Shown piece after piece: positions 8,086 to 52,618 of a stretch of DNA of 64,000 bases. The translations under genes were made by a program, and so were the position numbers. The stretch's first letter is position 1, and each line of letters begins with the position of its first letter. The notes beneath the pieces were generated by a model. It was not told the DNA's origin. It saw nothing but the letters and a program-made list of their open reading frames with translations, and ran no database searches. Source of the stretch: Aquirufa lenticrescens (GTDB lineage: Bacteria > Bacteroidota > Bacteroidia > Cytophagales > Spirosomataceae); NCBI RefSeq assembly GCF_019916085.1, contig NZ_CP049834.1, positions 2,432,501 through 2,496,500 of the forward strand. Reading direction: 5' to 3'.

Positions 8086-9150
8086 ATGAACGCAAACGAA
8101 TTTTTGTACTCCTATTTAAATAATGCCTCACCCACTGGATTTGAGGCGAGTGGACAAAAAATTTGGTTAGATTATATTCAACCTTTCATCGACGAAAAGA
8201 TCATTGATACGTATGGAACTGCTGTGGGCGTAATCAATCCTGGTCAACCTTACAAAGTGGTAATCGAAGCCCATGCCGATGAAATTTCTTGGTTTGTGAA
8301 CTATATCGATGATAATGGATATCTGTTTTTACGTCGCAATGGCGGATCAGATGCCTTAATTGCTCCCTCTATGCGGGCGAATATTCACACAAAAGATAAA
8401 GTGGTAAAAGGAATTTTTGGGTGGCCAGCGATTCACGTAAGAGATATTGCCAAAGACAAAGCTCCAGGCATTTCTGACATATTCATTGATTGTGGTGCTT
8501 CGAATAAAAAGGAAGTGGAAGAAATGGGTATCCACGTGGGTACGGTAGTTACTTTCGAAGATGGATTAATGGAGTTGAACGGCAAATATTTAGTAGGCCG
8601 TGCCTTAGATAACAGAATCGGTGGTTATATGATTGCCGAAGTGGCTAGAAGACTGAAAGAAAATAACATTACCCTACCCTACACGCTATATGTCGTCAAC
8701 TCTGTTCAAGAGGAGATTGGCTTACGTGGGGCGGAAATGATTGTTCGTCGTTTGAAGCCAGATTTAGCATTCATAACTGATGTAACACACGATACGCAAT
8801 CGCCTATGTACAATAAAAAAACACAGGGCGATATGGCTTGTGGAAAAGGTCCCGTTATCTGTTATGGACCTGCGGTTCAGAATAATGTGCGCGATTTCAT
8901 TATAGACGTTGCAGAAGAAAATAAGATTGATTTTCAAAGACAGGCCGTGTCACGCTCTACTGGAACCGATACTGATTCATTTGCGTATGCTACAGAAGGC
9001 GTCGCATCTTCCTTAATTAGTCTACCGTTAAAGTATATGCACACCACGGTAGAAACGATTGCAAAAGACGATATGAATGCAGTGATCGACCTTATTTACC
9101 AATGCTTGTTGAAGGTGAAGGGTGGAGAGGATTGGAGATATTTTAATTAA
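8086..9150 (+). CDS. M42 family metallopeptidase
   Basis: Cytosolic dinuclear metal aminopeptidase of the M42 (glutamyl aminopeptidase/endoglucanase-like) family, tetrahedral-type enzyme in studied members. The metal and catalytic residues are visible: His in IEAHADEIS (about 64), Asp in GRALDNRIGG (about 175), Glu-Glu in VQEEIGLRG (about 207), Asp in FITDVTHDT (about 230) and His in YMHTT (about 318). Length 354 is standard. It follows its own promoter and ends in a heptamer-repeat region with a hairpin. Confidence 0.92.
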   Translation: MNANEFLYSYLNNASPTGFEASGQKIWLDYIQPFIDEKIIDTYGTAVGVINPGQPYKVVIEAHADEISWFVNYIDDNGYLFLRRNGGSDALIAPSMRANIHTKDKVVKGIFGWPAIHVRDIAKDKAPGISDIFIDCGASNKKEVEEMGIHVGTVVTFEDGLMELNGKYLVGRALDNRIGGYMIAEVARRLKENNITLPYTLYVVNSVQEEIGLRGAEMIVRRLKPDLAFITDVTHDTQSPMYNKKTQGDMACGKGPVICYGPAVQNNVRDFIIDVAEENKIDFQRQAVSRSTGTDTDSFAYATEGVASSLISLPLKYMHTTVETIAKDDMNAVIDLIYQCLLKVKGGEDWRYFN

Positions 9151-9154
9151 CATA

Positions 9155-9217
9155 CAGTATCTAGTAGTCAGTAGCCAGTATAAAGTAGATAATAGATTAG
9201 AGAATAGAGAGTAGAGA
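9155..9217 (+). repeat. Heptamer microrepeat, CAGTAGN family, copy 2
   Basis: Nine consecutive 7-bp units in register starting 4 nt after the M42 stop: CAGTATC, TAGTAGT, CAGTAGC, CAGTATA, AAGTAGA, TAATAGA, TTAGAGA, ATAGAGA, GTAGAGA. Units drift gradually in sequence but keep the 7-bp period. The last ones form the left arm of a hairpin. Confidence 0.6.
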
Positions 9218-9242
9218 ATGTGAATTTTTTCTACTCTTTTTT
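9208..9242 (+). terminator. Possible terminator for the M42 gene
   Basis: AGAGTAGA (9208-9215) pairs with TCTACTCT (9230-9237) around a 14-nt loop and is followed by six T. It is modest in strength but correctly placed in the middle of the convergent gap. Confidence 0.45.
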
Positions 9243-9248
9243 GTGAAA

Positions 9249-9321
9249 CTGATTACTGTCTACTGTCTACTGATTACTGATTACTGATTACTGATTACTG
9301 TCAACTACCTACTGCCTACTG
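9249..9321 (-). repeat. Heptamer microrepeat, CAGTAGN family, copy 3
   Basis: Read on the minus strand, ten and a half 7-bp units (CAGTAGG twice, TAGTTGA, CAGTAAT four times, CAGTAGA twice, CAGTAAT, CAG). The first unit supplies the Gln codon and the TAG stop of the S9 peptidase. This array and copy 2 face each other across the terminator-like hairpin, each reading CAGTAG in the sense of its own upstream gene. Confidence 0.65.
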
Positions 9322-11412
9322 TATTTTCAAATACCTCGCAAAAAACTCATACGTCCTCAACATCTGATCAATACGTTGGCGGTTATTACCTGAACGCGTT
9401 AATTCGTGAGTTCCACCAGGATGACGAACATATTCCACGTCACGACCTAATACTTTTAGACTTTTGTATAACATTTCACTTTGAATCACTCCTGTTCTTA
9501 GATCATTCTCTCCGTGAAATATCAATAAAGGTGTTTTAATGTTTTGCACATACGAATAAGGTGATTCGCGTTCTAAGATAGTCTTAGTTGCTTTTTCCCA
9601 AGGATAACCACCAAAATAATTAGGCACTAAACGCCAAGCATTTCCTTCGCCCATAAAGGTAGAAAGTTCATAAACTCCGCGTTGTGCACAAGCTACTTTA
9701 AAGCGATTTGTATGGCCTACAATCCAAGAAACTAAGTATCCCGCATATGAACCACCAGTAACTGCCTGCTGAGTGGTATCTGCCCAACCTTCGGCAATCG
9801 CTAAATCCAAAGCCTTCAGAACATCTGACGTGGGGCCTGCACCCCAATCTTTCACATTAGCCGCTAAAAATTCTGAGCCATAACCACCAGATCCGCGAGG
9901 ATTTGCATAGACTACGCCCATTCCTTTGGCAGCATAATATTGAAATTCGTGCCACATACTTGCTTCACCTGTTCCCCACATCGCTGAAGGTCCACCGTGA
10001 ATATTTAATACGACTGGATATTTCTTCCCAGCTTCAAAATCTGTAGGTTTCATTACCCAATAATCCACTTTTTGACCTTTGCTATTTGTGAAGGAATGCT
10101 TATCAGGACGAACGATACTTTTAGAAGCTAACCAACCAGTATTTATAGAAGTAAAGGTTTTCTCTGTTTCTGCGGATTGTAGGTAAATTTCAGATGGGTT
10201 TTCGATTCCTGTTTTGGCATACACAAAACCTGAATTAGTTACATCGAAACCCAAAATACCTGTAGTGTTATCCGTTAATTGCTTTACCTGTTTACTAGAA
10301 AGATCAAATACATAAAGAGGCGCTCCACCCTGATTTTGAGCAGTAAAATAAAGCTTGGTCTCATCAGAAGACCATTTCACCTGTGTAATCACGCGATCGA
10401 TGGGTACCTTCGTGATTTGAGAAGGATTTGCCACAGATATAATTTGTAGCACCGCATTTTGTACACCAGTTGATTTAGCTTCTTGGAAGGCTAACCATTT
10501 TTCAGCAGGTGATAAGGTCAAATTGGACATTTTATATCCCGCTTTTTGGTAAATCAATTTTGACCCAAAACCAATATACGAATCCAACACCTTATCAGGA
10601 TGGGCCAATGAATCAGCCGGAACTACTGCGTAGATACCATTTGAGGCAAATTCGACATCAGACCAACGCTGGAATGGGTTGTTCAATAAAACAGGCTTTC
10701 CGGTCAGACTCGTCTTAAAATAAGCTGGTAAAGAGATTTCTGAAGTGGTTGTACTTTCTTCTTGGAAATTCAAGCGATTGATGACTTTGGCCTTCTTATC
10801 TACTTCATTCTGAAATAGATAAGCTCTTACTTCGTCTAAATTTCCGTTTGGATTAGCCTTAGATTTCTTGGCTATACCAGAAAGCATGGGTTTTTCCAAA
10901 GTCCAAGAGGGCAACAATCCTTTCTTATTATAGACCGAATCCACCAGGAATTCCTTCAGGGTAAATGAAGATTGGAAATAGATTTCCAGACCCGAAGCAG
11001 ACCAAACCGGATTGGAAACGGCGAAAGGTAAATTGGTAATCGCTTGTGGTTCCCCTCCTGCTAAATCCAACACATAGACTTGAGATTTAGCACCCATATC
11101 GCGAGTGAAAGCAATTTTGCTCCCATCTGGACTCCACGTGGGTGAAGAAATAGAATTCTTTCCGGAGGTTAATGCGCGTGATTCACCCGATTGCAGATTA
11201 CCAAGATACAAATGAGTCTGGTAGACAAAATCATTCTTTTTATCCGCATCATCAACAATCGAGGTCACGGTGTAGATAAATTGATTTCCTTTAGGTGAAA
11301 CTAGGGGTTTTCCAGCTATCTTAATTTTCAACAAATCAGTGACATGGATTTTTTCCTTAGGGTTTTGGGCTACTAAAGAAAATGAAAGTAGTACGAATAA
11401 TAGGTGTTTCAT
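9316..11412 (-). CDS. S9 family (prolyl oligopeptidase-type) serine peptidase
   Basis: Exported peptidase of the dipeptidyl/acylaminoacyl peptidase type. The ATG at 11412 gives a clean signal peptide (MKHLLFVLLSFSLVAQ); the 15 residues open upstream do not. An N-terminal beta-propeller (about 30-440, WD40-like repeats such as SPTWSPDGSKIAFTRD) precedes an alpha/beta-hydrolase domain (about 450-698). The triad is visible: Ser in GGSYAGY (about 565), Asp in FHGENDLRTG and His in PGGTHELTR. The stop codon lies inside a heptamer repeat. Substrate unknown; probably peptide scavenging in the periplasm. Confidence 0.92.
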   Translation of the reverse strand: MKHLLFVLLSFSLVAQNPKEKIHVTDLLKIKIAGKPLVSPKGNQFIYTVTSIVDDADKKNDFVYQTHLYLGNLQSGESRALTSGKNSISSPTWSPDGSKIAFTRDMGAKSQVYVLDLAGGEPQAITNLPFAVSNPVWSASGLEIYFQSSFTLKEFLVDSVYNKKGLLPSWTLEKPMLSGIAKKSKANPNGNLDEVRAYLFQNEVDKKAKVINRLNFQEESTTTSEISLPAYFKTSLTGKPVLLNNPFQRWSDVEFASNGIYAVVPADSLAHPDKVLDSYIGFGSKLIYQKAGYKMSNLTLSPAEKWLAFQEAKSTGVQNAVLQIISVANPSQITKVPIDRVITQVKWSSDETKLYFTAQNQGGAPLYVFDLSSKQVKQLTDNTTGILGFDVTNSGFVYAKTGIENPSEIYLQSAETEKTFTSINTGWLASKSIVRPDKHSFTNSKGQKVDYWVMKPTDFEAGKKYPVVLNIHGGPSAMWGTGEASMWHEFQYYAAKGMGVVYANPRGSGGYGSEFLAANVKDWGAGPTSDVLKALDLAIAEGWADTTQQAVTGGSYAGYLVSWIVGHTNRFKVACAQRGVYELSTFMGEGNAWRLVPNYFGGYPWEKATKTILERESPYSYVQNIKTPLLIFHGENDLRTGVIQSEMLYKSLKVLGRDVEYVRHPGGTHELTRSGNNRQRIDQMLRTYEFFARYLKIQ

Positions 11413-11431
11413 AGATGAAATGTCTAGGTAT

Positions 11432-11464
11432 AAAAAATGCTCAGCATCCGAAGACACTGAGCAT
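11432..11464 (-). terminator. Leucine operon terminator (UUCG loop)
   Basis: ATGCTCAG (11437-11444) pairs with CTGAGCAT (11457-11464); on the minus strand an inner TC-UUCG-GA forms a stable tetraloop and six T follow. It lies 20 nt past the leuB stop and just before the S9 start, ending the leuCD-synthase-leuB transcript. Confidence 0.85.
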
Positions 11465-11484
11465 AAAAATACGAGTTAATTCGA

Positions 11485-12558
11485 TTAAATCAATTTCAAG
11501 ATTTCCTCTCCGATCGCTTCCGTTCCTAAAATCATCGATTTATCTGTCGTCGCATCAGCGATATCGCCTGTACGGAAACCTTTCTTTAATACTTGGTCTA
11601 CCGCGTTGATAACTACTTCTGACTCCGCTTTCATTCCGAAAGAAATGTCTAATAAAAGAGCAGCAGATAAAACGGACGCCATTGGATTTGCTAAGCCTTT
11701 ACCCGTGATATCGTGTGCAGAACCGTGAATTGGCTCGTAAACACCTGTTCCATCTCCAATAGATGCAGAAGCTAACATACCCATCGAACCAGCGATTTGA
11801 GATGCTTCATCTGTTAAAATATCACCGAATAAGTTTGCAGTTACCACTACGTCAAAACGCTTCGGATCTTTGATCAACAACATCGCTGTCGCATCTACGA
11901 ATTGGTATTCAACCGTCACATCTGGATATTCCAAAGCTAATTTTTGGATCTCTTCACGCCATAAACGTGACGACTCTAACACGTTTGCCTTATCGACAGA
12001 AACTAAATGCTTCTTACGTGTACGTGCTGCTTCAAATGCCTTGCGACCAATGCGTTCAACTTCGTAACGACTATACTCTGCCACGTCATAGGCTGTATCG
12101 CCATTGTTTTTGCGACCTTTTTCACCAAAATAGATATCACCAGTTAATTCACGGAAGAACAAAATGTCCGCTCCTTTTAAAATCTCAGGCTTAATGCTAG
12201 ACGCACTTAATAACTCATCAAATAACTTGATCGGACGAAGATTCGCGTATAGACCTAATTCCTTACGCATTTTTAACAATCCTTGCTCTGGACGAACTTT
12301 TGCAGATGGATCGTTATCGTATTTCGGGTGACCTACCGCTCCAAAAAGTACTGCATCAGACACTTTCATCTTATCCAACGTTTCAGCTGGCAACGGATCG
12401 CCTGTCGCTTCAATCGCTACGTGACCAATTAATGCTTCGTCATAGGTGAAATCGTGACCAAACTTAGCCGCAATTTTCTCTAATACTTTCTTTCCTACTT
12501 CGGTTACTTCTTGACCGATTCCATCACCTGGAACAATTAAAATATGCTTCTTCGCCAT
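11485..12558 (-). CDS. leuB: 3-isopropylmalate dehydrogenase
   Basis: NAD-dependent oxidation and decarboxylation of 3-isopropylmalate in leucine synthesis. Family blocks are GDGIGQEV (about 9), the substrate loop GLYANLRPIKLF (about 103), the dimer-interface FRELTGDIYFG, and the metal/NAD region NLFGDILTDEASQIAGSMGMLASASIG (about 243) with PIHGSAHDITGKGLANP. Length 357 matches. It is last of four leftward genes, 11 nt after the synthase stop. Confidence 0.97.
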   Translation of the reverse strand: MAKKHILIVPGDGIGQEVTEVGKKVLEKIAAKFGHDFTYDEALIGHVAIEATGDPLPAETLDKMKVSDAVLFGAVGHPKYDNDPSAKVRPEQGLLKMRKELGLYANLRPIKLFDELLSASSIKPEILKGADILFFRELTGDIYFGEKGRKNNGDTAYDVAEYSRYEVERIGRKAFEAARTRKKHLVSVDKANVLESSRLWREEIQKLALEYPDVTVEYQFVDATAMLLIKDPKRFDVVVTANLFGDILTDEASQIAGSMGMLASASIGDGTGVYEPIHGSAHDITGKGLANPMASVLSAALLLDISFGMKAESEVVINAVDQVLKKGFRTGDIADATTDKSMILGTEAIGEEILKLI

Positions 12559-12569
12559 TATTATTTTTA

Positions 12570-14105
12570 TTATATCAAATTCAACATTTTCTGAGTGGCC
12601 TTGATCGCTGAAACCGTTTGGTCAGAATCCAAACCTCTCGTAATTAACTCCTTACCTCCATCAGACCACGTAATAATCGTCTCACAAAGCGCATCAGAAT
12701 CACCTCCAGGTGGAATGCGTACCGCATAATCCTTCAATACCGGAAGAATCTTGCCGTGCTTTTCAAAGATGATTCCTAGCGCTTTCATAAAGGCATCATA
12801 TTGACCATCCCCTTGTGCGTGTTCTTCAAATACGTCACCATCGATCGAAATCTTTAAGGTAACAGAAGGGCGTAAATCCTTAGAATGAGTCAAGACATAG
12901 TTCAAAACTTGAACTCGCTCTTCAATCGTATTACTATCTAATACATCGGAAATGATGTAAGGAAGATCATTTTGAGTGACAACCTCTTTGCGATCGCCTA
13001 ATTCAATAATTCGCTGCGTAACAATCTTTAGATCTTGATCAGACAATTGAATGCCTAAAGCAGCTAAATTATTCTCGATATTAGCTTTACCTGATGTCTT
13101 TCCCAGAGCGTATTTACGCTCACGGCCAAAACGCTCTGGCATCAAATCATTATGATAAAGATTATTCTTTTTGTCTCCATCCGCGTGGATACCTGCCGTT
13201 TGTGTAAAGACATTCTCTCCTACCACTGGCTTATTAACTGGAATACGAAAACCAGAAAAAGTTTCAACTAGTTTACTAACACGGTATAAAGACTTTTCAC
13301 ACACAGACGTTTTAACATCGGTTTGGTAATCATTCAACACCGCAATAACACTAGCTAAAGGAGCATTTCCGGCCCGTTCACCCATACCATTAACGGTTAA
13401 GTGTAAACCATGAACGCCACAACGAACTGCTTCCAAGGCATTCGCAGTTCCTAAGTCATAATCATTGTGGGCGTGAAAATCAAAATGCGTGTTCGGATAC
13501 TTTAAGATTAACTGTTTAATGAAATCCGATACTTCGTAAGGAGTTAAAATCCCTAAGGTATCTGGTAATAAAACACGATCCACGGGTTGTGTAGACAGAA
13601 AATCTAAGTATTGAAACACATAGTTTGCGCTATTACGCATCCCATTGCTCCAATCTTCTAAATATACGTTCACCGATAAGCCGTTCGACTTAGCTAAGGT
13701 GATGGTCTCTGAAATTTCCTTGAAATGTTGTTCTGGCGTCTTCTTAAGCTGATGTTGCAAATGATTTAAAGATCCTTTGGTCAATAAATTCATCACTTTA
13801 GCACCTGCATCTAGCATCCATTGAACAGAGGTTCCGCCATCGACAAAGGTTAATACCTCCACTTTATCAAGAAATCCATTCGCAGCAGCCCAAGAGGTAA
13901 TCTTCTTCACCGCTTGAAATTCACCCTCAGAAACACGCGCTGACGCAATCTCAATACGATCGACCTTTAATTCGGTCAAAAGTAATTGAGCTATGGTTAA
14001 CTTCTCTGAGGCTGAAAACGATACTCCGCTGGTTTGTTCCCCATCGCGAAGGGTCGTATCCATTATTTCTATGTGGCGTTTCAAAAGACTAGCGGTTTTC
14101 TGCAA
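12570..14105 (-). CDS. 2-isopropylmalate/citramalate-type synthase with regulatory domain
   Basis: Claisen-type acyltransferase with a TIM barrel (about 10-280; [13 protein letters not shown] at 15, HxH metal pair in [22 protein letters not shown]) and a C-terminal LeuA allosteric dimer domain (about 385-511). Position between leuD and leuB favours 2-isopropylmalate synthase. However, the barrel sequence is of the divergent Bacteroidota type that also resembles (R)-citramalate synthase, and the acyl-acceptor pocket cannot be read by eye, so I give no symbol. The start overlaps the leuD end by 17 nt, suggesting translational coupling; the next Met (residue 15) would delete the first strand. 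Confidence 0.87.
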
Positions 14106-48504: not shown

Positions 48505-51447
48505 ATGAGCTGGAGCAATTACGAAGTACGTTTATTGAAAGACCATTTTGAGGGTCAGCTGTTTTTTGACGAGAGCCAAAACTCGCAAATAGCTAAGCGT
48601 ATTTATGCGACTGACGCCTCCGTTTACCAAGTTAAACCAGCAGCGGTCGCTATTCCTGCTTCCATAAAAGACATCAAACGCCTGATTCAATTTGCCTCTC
48701 AAGCAAAGACAGGATTAATTCCAAGAGGAGCTGGGACCTCATTAGCAGGCCAGGTGGTGGGCGATGGTATCGTCATGGAAATCTCTTCTGCTTTAGGAAA
48801 AGTCATTTCACTAAATAGAAAAGAGAAATCAGTTTGGATCGAACCAGGAATCGTTAGAGATGATTTGAACAAACATTTAGCGACTGCTGATTTGTTTTTT
48901 GGCCCTGAAACCTCTACGGCAAATCGTGCCCTTCTAGGTGGAATGCTGGGCAATAATAGCTGTGGATTGCATAGTATTGTTTGGGGTTCCGTGCGGGATC
49001 ATATTTTGGAAACACGTGCCTTTTTATCCGACGGTACTGAGATTCATACGCATCCATTGACTCGTGAGGAATTCTATCACAAGACTACCCTTCAAAATTT
49101 AGAAGGGAAGATTTATCGCGAGATTCATCGGATGTTAAATAACCCTGAAATTCAAACTTTAATTCGGGAGAAGTTTCCAAAAAAATCCATCAAACGTAGA
49201 AATACGGGCTATGCATTAGATGCCTTATTGGATATGCAACCCTTTAATCCGGAAGGTGAGCCCTTCAATCTTTCCAAGTTAATTGCGGGATCAGAGGGGA
49301 CATTGGCGGTTGTGCATGCCATGAAATTGAATCTATTGGATCTACCTGAGCCAGAAGTGGCTCTTGTTTGTATTCATTGCCAAAGCCTACAAGAAGCATT
49401 ACAGGTGAATATTGAGGCACTAAAGCACCCGATTCTGGCCTCTGAATTAGTGGATGATTACATCCTTTCGTTTACGGAAGGCCATCCAAATTTCGAAAAA
49501 GACCGCGATTTTATTGAAGGTAAGCCGGCTGCGATTTTAATGGTGGAGTTCCGATCAAGTGATCGCTCTAACTTAGAAAATCAAGTTAATCAACTCATTG
49601 ATCAATTAAAGTCGAATAAACTGGGCTATGCCTACCCTACCTTATTTGGTCAGGATATTGCCAAAGGTTGGGATATCCGAAAAGCCGGTCTGGGATTAAT
49701 ACGTAACCTTGAGGGAGATACCCAACCCGTCAATTTGATCGAAGATTGTGCAGTAGATCCAAAGGATTTACCGGCTTATGTGGCAGAAATACAAGCGTTA
49801 CTCGCCAAGAATGATACAAATGCGGCCTATTATGCGCACGCAGGAGCAGGAGAATTACATATAGAGCCATTTATTAACCTAAAGAGCCCTGAAGGTGTTT
49901 CTATTTTCCGTCAATTATTGACCGAAACGGTGGAAATACTAAAAAAATACAAAGGATCCTTAAGTGGCGAACACGGAGATGGTCGTTTGCGCGGCGAATT
50001 CATTCCCGCTTTAATGGGCAAAGAAGTTTATGACCTTTTCAAAGAGATTAAGCACGTATTTGACCCCCAAAATCTCTTTAATCCAGGTAAAATTACGGAT
50101 AGTCCGCCGATGGACACGGCCTTCCGTTTTACCGATAAAAAAGCAGCTGAGCCAACCTATTTCTTTGATTATGGGGTTTGGAGAAACCCCTTAGGTCTTG
50201 CTGAAAAATGCTCTGGTTCCGGAGATTGCAAAAAGACAGCTTTAAGCGGTGGCACCATGTGCCCAAGTTATATGGCCACTTTGCAAGAAAAAGATTCTAC
50301 CCGAGCAAGAGCTAATATGCTCAGACAACTCCTAAGTTCACCTAAAGAGGAAACATTCAGCAATCCAGATTTGCATGAAATTTTAGACTTATGTTTATCT
50401 TGCAAAGGTTGCCAAACGGAATGCCCTTCCGGCGTGGACATGGGTAAATTAAAGGCGGAAACGCTGCAACAGTCCTATTTAAAAAATGGAGTGCCCTTAC
50501 GCACTAAATTAATCGGACACTTCCCTACCCTGCAGCGCTACGCAAGCTATGTGGCACCATTGTATAATTTTATTGTTGAATTCCCGCTGACGTCTAGCAT
50601 AGTAAAACTAGCGATGGGATTCTCTATCGAACGAAGTCTACCTACGGTACAATTTACCAGCTTGGAAAAATGGTTTGAGCGTTATGCTCAGAAAAACCCA
50701 CAGGATGCCTTTGAAAAAGGATTTGTTTATCTTTTAGCTGATGAATTCACGAATCACAATGAGGTTCCTTTAGGTCAAAAGACCGTTAAATTATTAAATC
50801 AATTAGGTTACGGGGTTCAAATTCCGAAAGGAATTGTCACTGGCAGAAGTTTTATTTCCAAAGGAATGTTAATTGAGGCTAAAGCGTTAGCCAATGCTAA
50901 TGTAGACCAATTAGCAGATCTCATTTCGATTGACCGACCTTTGATTGGAATTGAACCAAGCGCCCTATTAACCTTCAGAGATGAAATCCCTTCTCTTGTT
51001 GATGCTGATAAACGCGAAAAAGCGGAACAATTAAAACCGAATTGCCTCTTAATCGACGAGTTCATCGCACGTGAATTCAAAGCAGGAAGAATAACTTCCG
51101 ATTCTTTCCACGGCAAACAGCAAAAAATCCTTTTACACGGCCATTGCCACCAAAAATCAATCGCCGGATTGACATCTACCCGAATCGCATTAACGATTCC
51201 CACTCAGTATGAAGTAGAATTATTACCCACGGGTTGTTGCGGAATGGCGGGATCTTTTGGCTATGAAAAAAAACACTATAAAATTTCTCAACAAATCGCG
51301 AACCTTGTCCTTTTCCCTCGCTTGTTAAATAAACCCATCAAAAGCATCATCGCCAGCAATGGAACATCCTGTAGACACCAAATCAAAGATGGTATCGAAC
51401 AAACAGGTTTCCACACGGCAGAAATTTTATTCAACGCACTCAAATGA
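48505..51447 (+). CDS. FAD-linked oxidase fused to Fe-S and CCG domains (D-lactate/glycolate dehydrogenase-like)
   Basis: 980-aa oxidoreductase combining the usual GlcD- and GlcF-type parts. PCMH FAD-binding domain (about 45-215, IPRGAGTSLAGQVVGDG), FAD-oxidase C domain (about 260-530, YYAHAGAGELHIEPF, SGEHGDGRLRG), 4Fe-4S ferredoxin region (about 570-640, CLSCKGCQTECPSG) and C-terminal cysteine-rich domain with HGHCHQKS and TGCCGMAGSFGYE. Close in layout to D-lactate or D-2-hydroxyglutarate dehydrogenases feeding the quinone pool; the exact 2-hydroxyacid is not readable. Its TGA stop overlaps the next gene's start (ATGA). Confidence 0.9.
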   Translation: MSWSNYEVRLLKDHFEGQLFFDESQNSQIAKRIYATDASVYQVKPAAVAIPASIKDIKRLIQFASQAKTGLIPRGAGTSLAGQVVGDGIVMEISSALGKVISLNRKEKSVWIEPGIVRDDLNKHLATADLFFGPETSTANRALLGGMLGNNSCGLHSIVWGSVRDHILETRAFLSDGTEIHTHPLTREEFYHKTTLQNLEGKIYREIHRMLNNPEIQTLIREKFPKKSIKRRNTGYALDALLDMQPFNPEGEPFNLSKLIAGSEGTLAVVHAMKLNLLDLPEPEVALVCIHCQSLQEALQVNIEALKHPILASELVDDYILSFTEGHPNFEKDRDFIEGKPAAILMVEFRSSDRSNLENQVNQLIDQLKSNKLGYAYPTLFGQDIAKGWDIRKAGLGLIRNLEGDTQPVNLIEDCAVDPKDLPAYVAEIQALLAKNDTNAAYYAHAGAGELHIEPFINLKSPEGVSIFRQLLTETVEILKKYKGSLSGEHGDGRLRGEFIPALMGKEVYDLFKEIKHVFDPQNLFNPGKITDSPPMDTAFRFTDKKAAEPTYFFDYGVWRNPLGLAEKCSGSGDCKKTALSGGTMCPSYMATLQEKDSTRARANMLRQLLSSPKEETFSNPDLHEILDLCLSCKGCQTECPSGVDMGKLKAETLQQSYLKNGVPLRTKLIGHFPTLQRYASYVAPLYNFIVEFPLTSSIVKLAMGFSIERSLPTVQFTSLEKWFERYAQKNPQDAFEKGFVYLLADEFTNHNEVPLGQKTVKLLNQLGYGVQIPKGIVTGRSFISKGMLIEAKALANANVDQLADLISIDRPLIGIEPSALLTFRDEIPSLVDADKREKAEQLKPNCLLIDEFIAREFKAGRITSDSFHGKQQKILLHGHCHQKSIAGLTSTRIALTIPTQYEVELLPTGCCGMAGSFGYEKKHYKISQQIANLVLFPRLLNKPIKSIIASNGTSCRHQIKDGIEQTGFHTAEILFNALK

Positions 51448-51740
51448 TCCAATACAACATATCGCTCTTTATTGAGCCCAGCATTACAGAAACTGCATTA
51501 AGAGCATTAAAAACCATAATAATGCCAGAAATCGAGAAGCAAGACTTCATCGATCAAATTCATTTATTCGAAATAAGTTCACACCAAGAGCCTGATTCAA
51601 ACGGATACTCCTTACAATGCTGGTTGCCCGAATTCGAAGAAGGACACAAAGAGTTTATCGAAGGAGTTGTTTCTGGATTTTTCCAAAAGGAATTCGCGAA
51701 CCAGTATGTGTACTTTCCGAGCCAGTTGAAGAGAGTATAA
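51444..51740 (+). CDS. DUF4286 protein
   Basis: 98-aa protein with the DUF4286 pattern MIQYNISLFIEPSITETAL then HLFEISSHQEPDSNGYSLQCW and YVYFPSQLKRV. The ferredoxin-like fold is expected; function unknown. Overlaps the oxidoreductase stop by 4 nt and is followed 1 nt later by a heptamer repeat. Confidence 0.8.
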   Translation: MIQYNISLFIEPSITETALRALKTIIMPEIEKQDFIDQIHLFEISSHQEPDSNGYSLQCWLPEFEEGHKEFIEGVVSGFFQKEFANQYVYFPSQLKRV

Positions 51741-51741
51741 A

Positions 51742-51770
51742 CAGTAGCCAGTGGACAGTGGACAGTAGTC
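51742..51770 (+). repeat. Heptamer microrepeat, CAGTAGN family, copy 4
   Basis: Four 7-bp units in register (CAGTAGC, CAGTGGA twice, CAGTAGT) starting 1 nt after the DUF4286 stop. Its last TAGTC is also the first joiner of the mini-hairpin array that follows. Confidence 0.62.
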
Positions 51771-51857
51771 ATCGCTGCGCGATTTAGTCGTCTGCAGCTT
51801 AGTCACGACGTTGTCGTTTAGTCATCGCTTCACGATTTAGTCGTCTGCGGCTTAGTT
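51766..51857. repeat. Tiled mini-hairpin array with TTAGTC joiners
   Basis: Five small inverted repeats with 3-nt loops are tiled without gaps, each followed by TTAGTC or TTAGTT: ATCGCTGCGCGAT (51771-51783), GTCTGCAGC (51790-51798), ACGACGTTGTCGT (51805-51817), ATCGCTTCACGAT (51824-51836) and GTCTGCGGC (51843-51851). Modules are 19 or 15 nt in the order 19, 15, 19, 19, 15. A further hairpin ATCGCCGAAGGCGAT lies at 51879-51893. As a direct repeat, 51766-51803 and 51819-51856 differ at 3 of 38 positions. No coding potential fits. Confidence 0.7.
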
Positions 51858-51898
51858 AAATAAATATTTCCTAAACTCATCGCCGAAGGCGATTCCAA

Positions 51899-51930
51899 CT
51901 TTGTGCTTTTTGCTTTGTTCTTTGTGCTTT
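51899..51930 (-). repeat. Heptamer microrepeat, AAAGCAC family
   Basis: On the minus strand four and a half 7-bp units (AAAGCAC, AAAGAAC, AAAGCAA, AAAGCAC, AAAG) begin within the TAA stop of ung. It has the same period and placement as the CAGTAGN arrays but different sequence. Confidence 0.55.
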
Positions 51931-52618
51931 ATAAAGCCCAATCAATCGATTCTTGACCACTACCCACCAAGTATTCATTGATCTTCGAAAAAGGCTTCGT
52001 CTTAAAAAATCCACCTCTATTAGCTGATAAAGGTGATGGATGAGCCGCATGAATGATGAAGTGGCGTTTAGGATCAATGAATTTTGACAGCTTTTGGGCG
52101 TATGCTCCCCATAAAACAAAAATGACGTTTTGTTTCTCTTTATTTAAAATCTGGATGACTTCTTGAGTGAATTCCTCCCATCCTTGTTTCGCGTGTGAAT
52201 TAGGCTCTCCTGAACGAACCGTTAAAACAGCATTCAGTAACAACACACCTTGATCAGCCCAGCTTCTTAAATCCCCATTATTTCGAATAACTTTCAAATC
52301 GTCATATAGTTCTTTGTAGATGTTACGAAGCGAAGGTGGCAAAGGGAAAGCAGAGGGAACAGAAAAAGATAAACCTTGCGCTTGTCCTAGGCCATGGTAA
52401 GGATCTTGACCAATGATCACAACTTTAGTTTTTGTAAAACTACACCGTTGGAAAGCGGTGAAAATCTGATCTAACGGTGGAAATACGTCATAAGAGATAT
52501 ACTCCTTTTCTAGAAACAACCCTATGTCTTGAAAATAAGAGGAAGAAATAGTGGAATTCAGCACCGTTTTCCAATCATTATTCAAAGTTTCGGCTAATTT
52601 TACAACAAGATTATTCAT
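51929..52618 (-). CDS. ung: Uracil-DNA glycosylase, family 1
   Basis: Removes uracil from DNA. Catalytic Asp and water-activating block VVIIGQDPYHGLGQAQGLSFSVP (about 64-86), LLLNAVLTVR and the minor-groove loop HPSPLSANRGGF (about 191-202). Length 229 is standard. Convergent with DUF4286; the intervening 188 bp are entirely repeats and hairpins. Divergent from apaG with 16 bp between starts. Confidence 0.97.
   Translation of the reverse strand: MNNLVVKLAETLNNDWKTVLNSTISSSYFQDIGLFLEKEYISYDVFPPLDQIFTAFQRCSFTKTKVVIIGQDPYHGLGQAQGLSFSVPSAFPLPPSLRNIYKELYDDLKVIRNNGDLRSWADQGVLLLNAVLTVRSGEPNSHAKQGWEEFTQEVIQILNKEKQNVIFVLWGAYAQKLSKFIDPKRHFIIHAAHPSPLSANRGGFFKTKPFSKINEYLVGSGQESIDWAL

Follow-up and report, generated by a model that had tools for sequence, protein, structure and literature searches.

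What sort of repeat holds its shape while its letters change is the question raised by one short spacer in the genome of Aquirufa lenticrescens. In the window (the whole 64,000-nucleotide stretch that was analysed, positions 2,432,501 to 2,496,500 of contig NZ_CP049834.1), a gene of the DUF4286 family and ung converge on this spacer, and a preliminary description had placed in it five tiny inverted repeats laid end to end between TTAGTC or TTAGTT joiners. On re-reading of the sequence, the coordinates, the joiners and the module lengths of 13, 9, 13, 13 and 9 nt are exactly as claimed, and the module spacing of 19, 15, 19, 19 and 15 holds (Table 1). The inverted repeats themselves hold in part: modules 1 and 3 are perfect, and modules 2 (arms and loop GTC-TGC-AGC), 4 and 5 are imperfect. 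That all loops are of 3 nt is wrong for this copy; the inner C/A mismatch of module 4 leaves 4 bp with a 5-nt loop. With two of five modules perfect, one carrying a mismatch and both 9-nt modules imperfect, the window copy represents the pairing of its family poorly, and what was first described is only partly confirmed. The accompanying interpretation, that structure and joiner are the repeated thing, is supported by what follows. The answer favored here, with a probability of roughly 0.4, is that the arrays are end modules of clade-specific, REPIN-like, RAYT-free gene-gap elements that act at the DNA level.

Table 1. Features of the spacer between the DUF4286-family gene and ung (positions in the window)
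Feature	Position	Strand	Basis
Flanking gene, DUF4286 family, convergent with ung	51444..51740	+	
Heptamer array CAGTAGC-CAGTGGA-CAGTGGA-CAGTAG, runs into first joiner	51742..51768	+	by eye
TAGTC, first joiner, (T)TAGTC variant; array head, common to heptamer array	51766..51770	+	sequence read
Module 1, ATCGC-TGC-GCGAT, perfect 5-bp mini-hairpin	51771..51783	+	sequence, stem class
Joiner TTAGTC (modules 1/2)	51784..51789	+	sequence and pattern match
Module 2, GTCTGCAGC, decayed 9-nt: 1 Watson-Crick pair, 1 G-T, 1 mismatch	51790..51798	+	sequence, stem class
Joiner TTAGTC (modules 2/3)	51799..51804	+	sequence and pattern match
Module 3, ACGAC-GTT-GTCGT, perfect 5-bp mini-hairpin	51805..51817	+	sequence, stem class
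Joiner TTAGTC (modules 3/4)	51818..51823	+	sequence and pattern match
Module 4, ATCGC-TTC-ACGAT, closing pair mismatched	51824..51836	+	sequence, stem class
Joiner TTAGTC (modules 4/5)	51837..51842	+	sequence and pattern match
Module 5, GTC-TGC-GGC, 9-nt, pairs with one G-T	51843..51851	+	sequence
Tail joiner TTAGTT	51852..51857	+	sequence
Lone hairpin ATCGCCGAAGGCGAT = ATCGCC-GAA-GGCGAT, ung side of spacer	51879..51893	.	
CTTTGTG heptamer array, other end module of spacer cassette; ends at ung stop codon	51899..51930	+	
Flanking gene, uracil-DNA glycosylase (ung), used for orthologous-site comparison	51929..52618	-	

Head-to-tail 7-nt units are found in the flanking parts of the spacer only (51742-51768 and 51899-51930). 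The first of these arrays, of the CAGTAGC type, begins 1 nt past the TAA of the DUF4286 gene (gene end 51740), and its reported merger with the hairpin array, into 51766-51770, is real at this locus. Several relatives have the lone hairpin of the ung side, in the same or nearly the same form, in their own ung spacers. Tandem Repeats Finder reported no row over 51766-51857, and a 7-periodicity script, for which both flanking heptamer arrays are too short or degenerate, likewise left the hairpin array unflagged. With the gathering score of Rfam 15, the sole match in the window is a tRNA, and six array loci gave zero. Folding models predict that the window copy folds modestly better than shuffled sequences, both as RNA from the + strand (z -1.9) and as DNA from the - strand (z -2.5); the models do not return five mini-hairpins in a row, and in DNA one module would form as drawn. 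Elsewhere in the window, at 9247-9309, about 10 copies of an ACTGATT/ACTGTCT heptamer form an array outside called genes.

The plan of the arrays is clear from copies elsewhere. The pattern TTAGTC-N9..13-TTAGTC has 76 matches in the 2.5-Mb genome (39 on the + strand, 37 on the - strand), compared to 3 for the backward pattern used as control, and the copies fall in about two dozen loci. Modules measure 13, 9 or 11 nt, that is 5, 3 or 4 bp each with a 3-nt loop, and the 13-mers mostly read RYNRC-TNY-GYNRY with a C-G closing pair. Pairing is perfect in 47 of the 54 13-nt modules of this genome, where arms re-dealt at the 3' side give a mean of 7.2 and a maximum of 16 in 500 deals; at loci L039-L103 it is perfect in 235 of 259, against 39.6 (maximum 54) for re-dealt arms. 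Among 620 modules chosen for joiners at most one letter from TTAGTC, a lenient selection, TTAGTC precedes 495 and GTAGTC 16, and the common variants keep GTC; a flank table was also made for 436 hairpins found with no joiner condition.

The stems are drawn from a small lexicon; their letters vary but pairing is kept. Where orthologous arrays could be aligned by module, 370 changed pairs keep Watson-Crick pairing in the two copies, compared to 81 that do not, and differences fall on 530 of 1920 loop sites and 831 of 5872 stem sites, counts that come from 294 non-independent pairwise comparisons with an alignment that favors similar stems. The preliminary description was to be abandoned if no further copy existed, or if the arms of such copies changed without keeping their pairing. 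Copies do exist and their arms change with pairing kept, so it survives both, and repetition of structure and joiner while the stem letters vary holds genome-wide and in 10 species. At one locus (L035), an array at about 11602-11691 lies within a long open frame, 8416-12825 (about 1,469 codons by the gene script made for this work), and does not close it, making an array-encoded stretch of protein possible.

Beyond what had been described, the arrays show polarity with respect to gene edges, joiners that serve as stop codons, exclusion of identical neighbors and restriction to one subclade. Placement was examined on 152 runs of at least two joiners, of which 128 had both neighboring genes called, after exclusion of 23 that lie at the edge of a locus and 1 within a gene; genes were called by a simple codon-usage script made for this analysis, rather than a published caller. 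In 95 of the 128 runs a gene edge is at most 60 nt from the array start, and in 10 it is that close to the array end. Neighboring runs at most 400 nt apart are ordered +/- in 40 cases, -/+ in 1 and in the same orientation in 11. In gaps of at least 100 nt, at loci that were themselves chosen for arrays, arrays occupy 44 of 63 gaps between convergent genes, 34 of 79 between tandem genes and 5 of 44 between divergent genes. A gene in sense is ahead of 97 of the 128 runs.

These placements bring forward a serious rival, which is nonetheless judged somewhat unlikely, in which the arrays are structures of mRNA 3' ends: a hairpin row transcribed in the 3' UTR would block 3'-5' exonucleases and separate converging transcripts, and the TAG of a joiner would end translation. 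The sense-gene majority and the distribution among convergent and divergent gaps are as this role predicts, and the former counts correspondingly against an element acting on DNA. So does the polarity of lone runs where genes converge, which is weaker, the start being the end closer to a gene in 19 of 28. Stop codons fit as well. TAG ends 45 of the 59 genes that finish no more than 40 nt ahead of the first joiner, compared to 176 of 526 overall (TAA 304, TAG 176, TGA 46 in all called genes), and in 37 of the 59 the stop is the TAG of TAGTC itself (P about 1e-12), an excess that is partly built in, because any frame entering an array meets the stops of the array. What speaks against the mRNA role is orientation in tandem gaps, where 19 lone runs lie sense-downstream of a gene and 16 face a gene start; with numbers so nearly even, the direction of transcription hardly matters there. 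The start is the end nearer the gene edge in 16 of the 19 and in 13 of the 16, and polarity is thus read as following the edge of the gap more than transcription.

Terminators also count against the mRNA role. In convergent gaps, intrinsic terminators are about as frequent with arrays (11 of 45) as without (7 of 25), and no terminator-like site was found in 51400-52000, around the window copy. A terminator role for the arrays themselves was rejected on the same lack of excess and on the lack of a T run, the joiner giving only TT; a GC-rich stem followed by a run of T, as intrinsic terminators have, is not what the modules present. A shared function of the adjoining genes was also considered and dropped: nine array-neighbor proteins are mostly enzymes of varied pathways with no common theme, and a tenth protein, encoded in a cassette that two palindromes enclose, has no Pfam match.

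The strand and molecule in which the modules fold bear on the same choice. Over 87 arrays, the mean predicted probability of the module hairpin in DNA is 0.56 for the GACTAA strand and 0.49 for the TTAGTC strand; in RNA it is 0.39 and 0.24, respectively, the RNA and DNA energy sets being not directly comparable. Sense mRNA, at 0.24, is the worst predicted folder of the four cases, which argues against an mRNA function. Single mismatches read on the TTAGTC strand are A/C in 23 cases and G/T in 10 (P 0.035), a weak bias from which 20 other mismatches are left out, and those tolerated are not mainly G-U in the sense strand. Loops of the form TNC occur in 197 of 281 perfect C-closed 13-mers and are GNA on the opposite strand, whereas GNA stands on the joiner strand in 14 of 281. 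GNA loops, as in d(GCGAAGC) mini-hairpins, are unusually stable in DNA. The energy tables assign nearly equal values to all loops and contain no GNA bonus, and an explanation of loop choice by hairpin energies was dropped for that reason. Loops, mismatch bias and folding, each modest alone, agree in pointing to the GACTAA strand of DNA and not to mRNA.

A rule that can be measured in the arrays is that neighboring modules differ. Across 189 arrays, adjacent modules have identical stems in 2 of 402 pairs, both in a single array, where 32.3 would be expected from global shuffling and 19.8 from shuffling within arrays; for unique module pairs the count is 2 of 197, with 17.1 expected. Adjacent stems one letter apart are also scarce (4, compared to 21 expected). 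At lag 2, identical stems number 13 of 232 with 15.7-18.6 expected, so that depletion is not clear, and at lag 3 they are too many, 24 of 123 where about 10 would be expected, which fits duplication of three-module blocks. Simulated arrays built of one module form the intended hairpins with a predicted mean probability of 0.11-0.26, compared to 0.24-0.56 for real arrays over all four folding models; the poorer predicted folding of one-module arrays offers a reason for the rule of neighbor exclusion. Real arrays, however, are predicted to fold marginally better than random mixtures of modules in DNA (0.561 versus 0.521, sd 0.022) and no better in RNA, which counts against the DNA-level reading.

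These patterns are where the other serious rival, that the arrays are passive DNA devoid of function, is best judged. Template-switch correction would keep stems paired, block duplication or gene conversion would spread modules, and selection would only purge harmful copies. The three-module block duplication and the small stem lexicon are as expected, and so are the avoidance of divergent gaps, the decay of the window copy and the replaceability of cassettes described below. Slippage should, however, give identical neighbors, which are almost absent; avoidance extends to neighbors one letter apart and does not clearly reach lag 2, and the strong preference for certain loops and for the closing pair also sits poorly with passivity. 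This account is considered unlikely.

Comparison of orthologous sites shows the arrays as parts of larger cassettes. At the ung site, the two genes abut or overlap, leaving no room for a spacer, in 14 readable array-free loci (by eye; 6 of 30 loci were unreadable with the motif used), and a cassette is present in 10 of 10 clade members; TTAGTC hairpins are part of it in 7, and the other 3 have heptamers alone. The second site follows a glutamate-5-kinase-like gene (AA_kinase plus PUA), for which 24 of 37 matches were fetched, 14 of them array-free loci. In these 14, six have abutting genes, one (L179) has the same partner about 15 nt off, and seven have another neighbor or gap. In the clade, the cassette supplies the stop codon of the kinase gene (ATT-TAGTC, ATA-TAGTC or ATC-TAA). 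Hairpin arrays surround a terminator in the kinase gap of 4 of 10 members (one with an N gap), CAAAG heptamers surround another terminator in 4, and other repeats occupy the gap in 2. The terminator between two arrays in the hairpin type implies that these arrays would be transcribed, a point in favor of the mRNA role.

The alternative kinase cassettes have an anatomy of their own. In L165, L167, L168 and L171 the kinase gene is followed by CAAAGNN heptamers, the hairpin GTATCCGCTTCGCGGAT or one near it, a terminator TGGGAC../..GTCCCA and inverted heptamers, with the first part duplicated in L168 and L171. L170 has a third type of spacer, in which TCCTCCGGACT repeats surround the terminator. 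The sequence TTAGTCCGGAG also marks several array ends, and at L032, L047 and L101 the short array centers have a cap such as TTAGTCAAAGAGTC or TTAGTCAATGGGTC opposite a similar cap in reverse complement.

Sister species can differ in whole cassettes. The well-supported sister pair G007 and G023 carries different cassettes at both the ung and the kinase sites, and the near pair G000 (the present genome) and G030 differs at the kinase site, with kinase proteins that are 100% identical by search. Such exchange could also come about by ordinary homologous recombination via the flanking genes. Orthologous arrays are recognizable across species, and much vertical inheritance follows from this.

Inward of the arrays lies another repeat, TTGACA-N6-TGTCAATACCTGAAAA, whose right arm (GCCCTCTGAGTACCTCGA..TTTATTTCAC) is conserved and whose other half is variable. 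Of 129 runs, 40 have this central palindrome at most 350 nt away on their inner side and 2 on their outer side. Examples occur at many loci (L031 at 2869 and 3640, L029 at 3762, L063 at 3007 and 3116), and a small cassette, which in L031 contains a 168-aa frame with no Pfam match, lies between inverted copies spaced about 620-880 bp. The strict form is present in 11 of 38 congeners, namely all 10 array genomes and G001. In appearance it resembles a site for a tyrosine recombinase, or a dif-like site.

The family is restricted to one subclade of Aquirufa, a genus of freshwater bacteria. When 149 genomes, the present one included, were searched for TTAGTC-N9..13-TTAGTC, at least 25 matches were found in 10 of 38 genomes of the genus, with 0 to 3 in each of the other 28. 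Genomes outside the genus gave 0 to 8 matches to this joiner-module-joiner pattern, and among the 36 inserts listed from them none is fully paired. The 10 array genomes are the 10 nearest by ung (71-100%), the next relative being at 54% or less; arrays of such related species are non-independent data. A stricter TTC-loop pattern, the only one used in the species-wide and viral scans, found 65 loci in the genomes of 84,980 species (one each), all in records named Aquirufa antheringensis, Cytophagaceae bacterium or, in one case, a MAG labelled Spirosoma fluviale, which therefore places the family in Aquirufa (Cytophagales). The same pattern had zero matches in 2.9 million viral contigs, and a phage origin was rejected on this basis. 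In a scan for any hexamer-hairpin-hexamer, TTAGTC was the sole repeated joiner in the array loci of the present genome, which were picked for their arrays. No version of the plan with another joiner was repeated in 240 kb of two array-free congeners (about 4% of both genomes), where some 7 matches would be expected at the average density of the present genome, so that this absence is weak evidence.

Among known repeats, the REP/BIME/REPIN families come closest. They too are short extragenic palindromes in dozens of copies that prefer gene ends and convergent gaps, with inverted pairs able to fold in ssDNA or mRNA. REPs are described as gene-gap palindromes that form inverted pairs and are predominantly downstream of genes (PMC3733652, PMC3116915), and the Aquirufa arrays do form inverted doublets in extragenic space (the 40, 1 and 11 counts above). 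They differ in having head-to-tail stems of 3-5 bp and variable sequence, a fixed unpaired joiner and neighbors that differ, and no unpaired GTAG tag stands at the foot of the palindromes, where TTAGTC prevails over GTAGTC. G000 gave no match to the RAYT transposase (Y1_Tnp, PF01797), and the 10 array genomes, of which some are incomplete, gave none either, as opposed to 12 of 28 array-free congeners at E at most 0.001, 10 of these above the family cut-off (Fisher P 0.016). With neither the defining tag nor the transposase found, the arrays are not filed as REP, and movement of a REP/REPIN family by RAYT, for all the likeness in placement, is very improbable.

Other known repeats are more distant. 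CGTC-tagged REPs (including Rickettsia RPE and Neisseria dRS3) resemble the arrays as small palindromes with no known transposase; they are reported from Bacteroidetes too, and inside genes, and have stems of 8-9 bp, loops of 4-5 nt, a CCA tail in most, rare clusters and negligible head-tail dimers (PMC3733652). The Aquirufa arrays are tandem, with 3-5-bp stems, 3-nt loops and the TTAGTC joiner, and show no CCA tail and no CGTC tag, the lack of this tag also telling against transposition by RAYT. Heptamer direct repeats (TAACTGA and others; MacGregor 2015, PMC4679880) are intergenic 7-nt arrays, Bacteroidetes included, and some near relatives lack them in the corresponding gap. Similar arrays flank or replace the hairpin arrays of Aquirufa, but heptamers are not hairpins, and the relevant portion of that account makes no mention of hairpin rows (PMC4679880). 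A CRISPR has a fixed repeat and unrelated spacers of constant size; the "spacers" here are self-complementary hairpins from a small lexicon. Repetitive hairpin and double-hairpin elements of mitochondria, such as the sponge RHE, reportedly form hairpins, are intergenic and multiply in compact genomes; they are organellar, and the descriptions at hand do not indicate fixed-joiner arrays for them. In the titles and abstract openings surveyed among open-licence PMC papers, no description of such arrays was found, and hairpin arrays of this plan are a kind of repeat that we could not find described.

The preferred reading, an RAYT-free gene-gap element acting on DNA, would combine these features as follows. 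The element is probably non-coding and would occupy the gap between two genes, which most often converge. Either end would start at a gene edge with an array, of TTAGTC-joined mini-hairpins or, in other types, of 7-nt repeats, and this end array would often supply the gene's own stop codon. The ends would face inward to a variable center: a few bases in some cases, elsewhere the TTGACA-N6-TGTCAA palindrome or an intrinsic terminator. The repeated property would be a foldable shape, with the module hairpin cleanest on the GACTAA strand of DNA, where loops are GNA and the closing pair is C-G. Stem letters would drift through paired changes, and neighbors would be kept different so that each module folds alone and not with its neighbor. 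A row of single-stranded or extruded hairpins would then probably be recognized or processed by a DNA-acting enzyme, and the element, or whole spacer alleles, may thereby be copied or exchanged, by analogy with what has been proposed for REPIN and BIME.

It is important to emphasize that anatomy, pairing, polarity, exclusion of like neighbors, stop codons taken from the array, restriction to the clade and the differing cassettes at the ung and kinase sites are observed, and that we infer action at the DNA level, mobility and an enzyme. The search for a candidate enzyme, which gave no Y1 in the 10 array genomes and only 1 or 2 genes of the phage-integrase family, of sizes fitting XerC/D, in several of them, stands against the element; a clade-specific tyrosine recombinase is not evident from these counts. 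With no Y1 and few XerC/D-like genes, mobility of the arrays is inferred rather than demonstrated. A bolder form of the DNA-level reading holds that the heritable unit is the shape itself: DNA-acting machinery of this subclade would keep rows of GNA-loop single-strand mini-hairpins, rewrite their stems pairwise and make neighbors differ, the rows being the ends of exchangeable gene-gap cassettes. This extension is doubtful.

Bacterial interspersed palindromes are normally recognized by conserved sequence, whereas here the stem letters are free and the shape is conserved, with neighbors that differ by a measurable rule, and repeat finders based on sequence can miss such elements. The 10 array genomes and 28 array-free congeners provide a clean comparison for tracing the enzyme behind them. 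Whether selection or template-switch mutation keeps genomic hairpins perfect is a question for which the arrays offer a natural test. For Aquirufa itself, intergenic spacers differ as units between sister species, and the element gives the abutting gene its stop codon.
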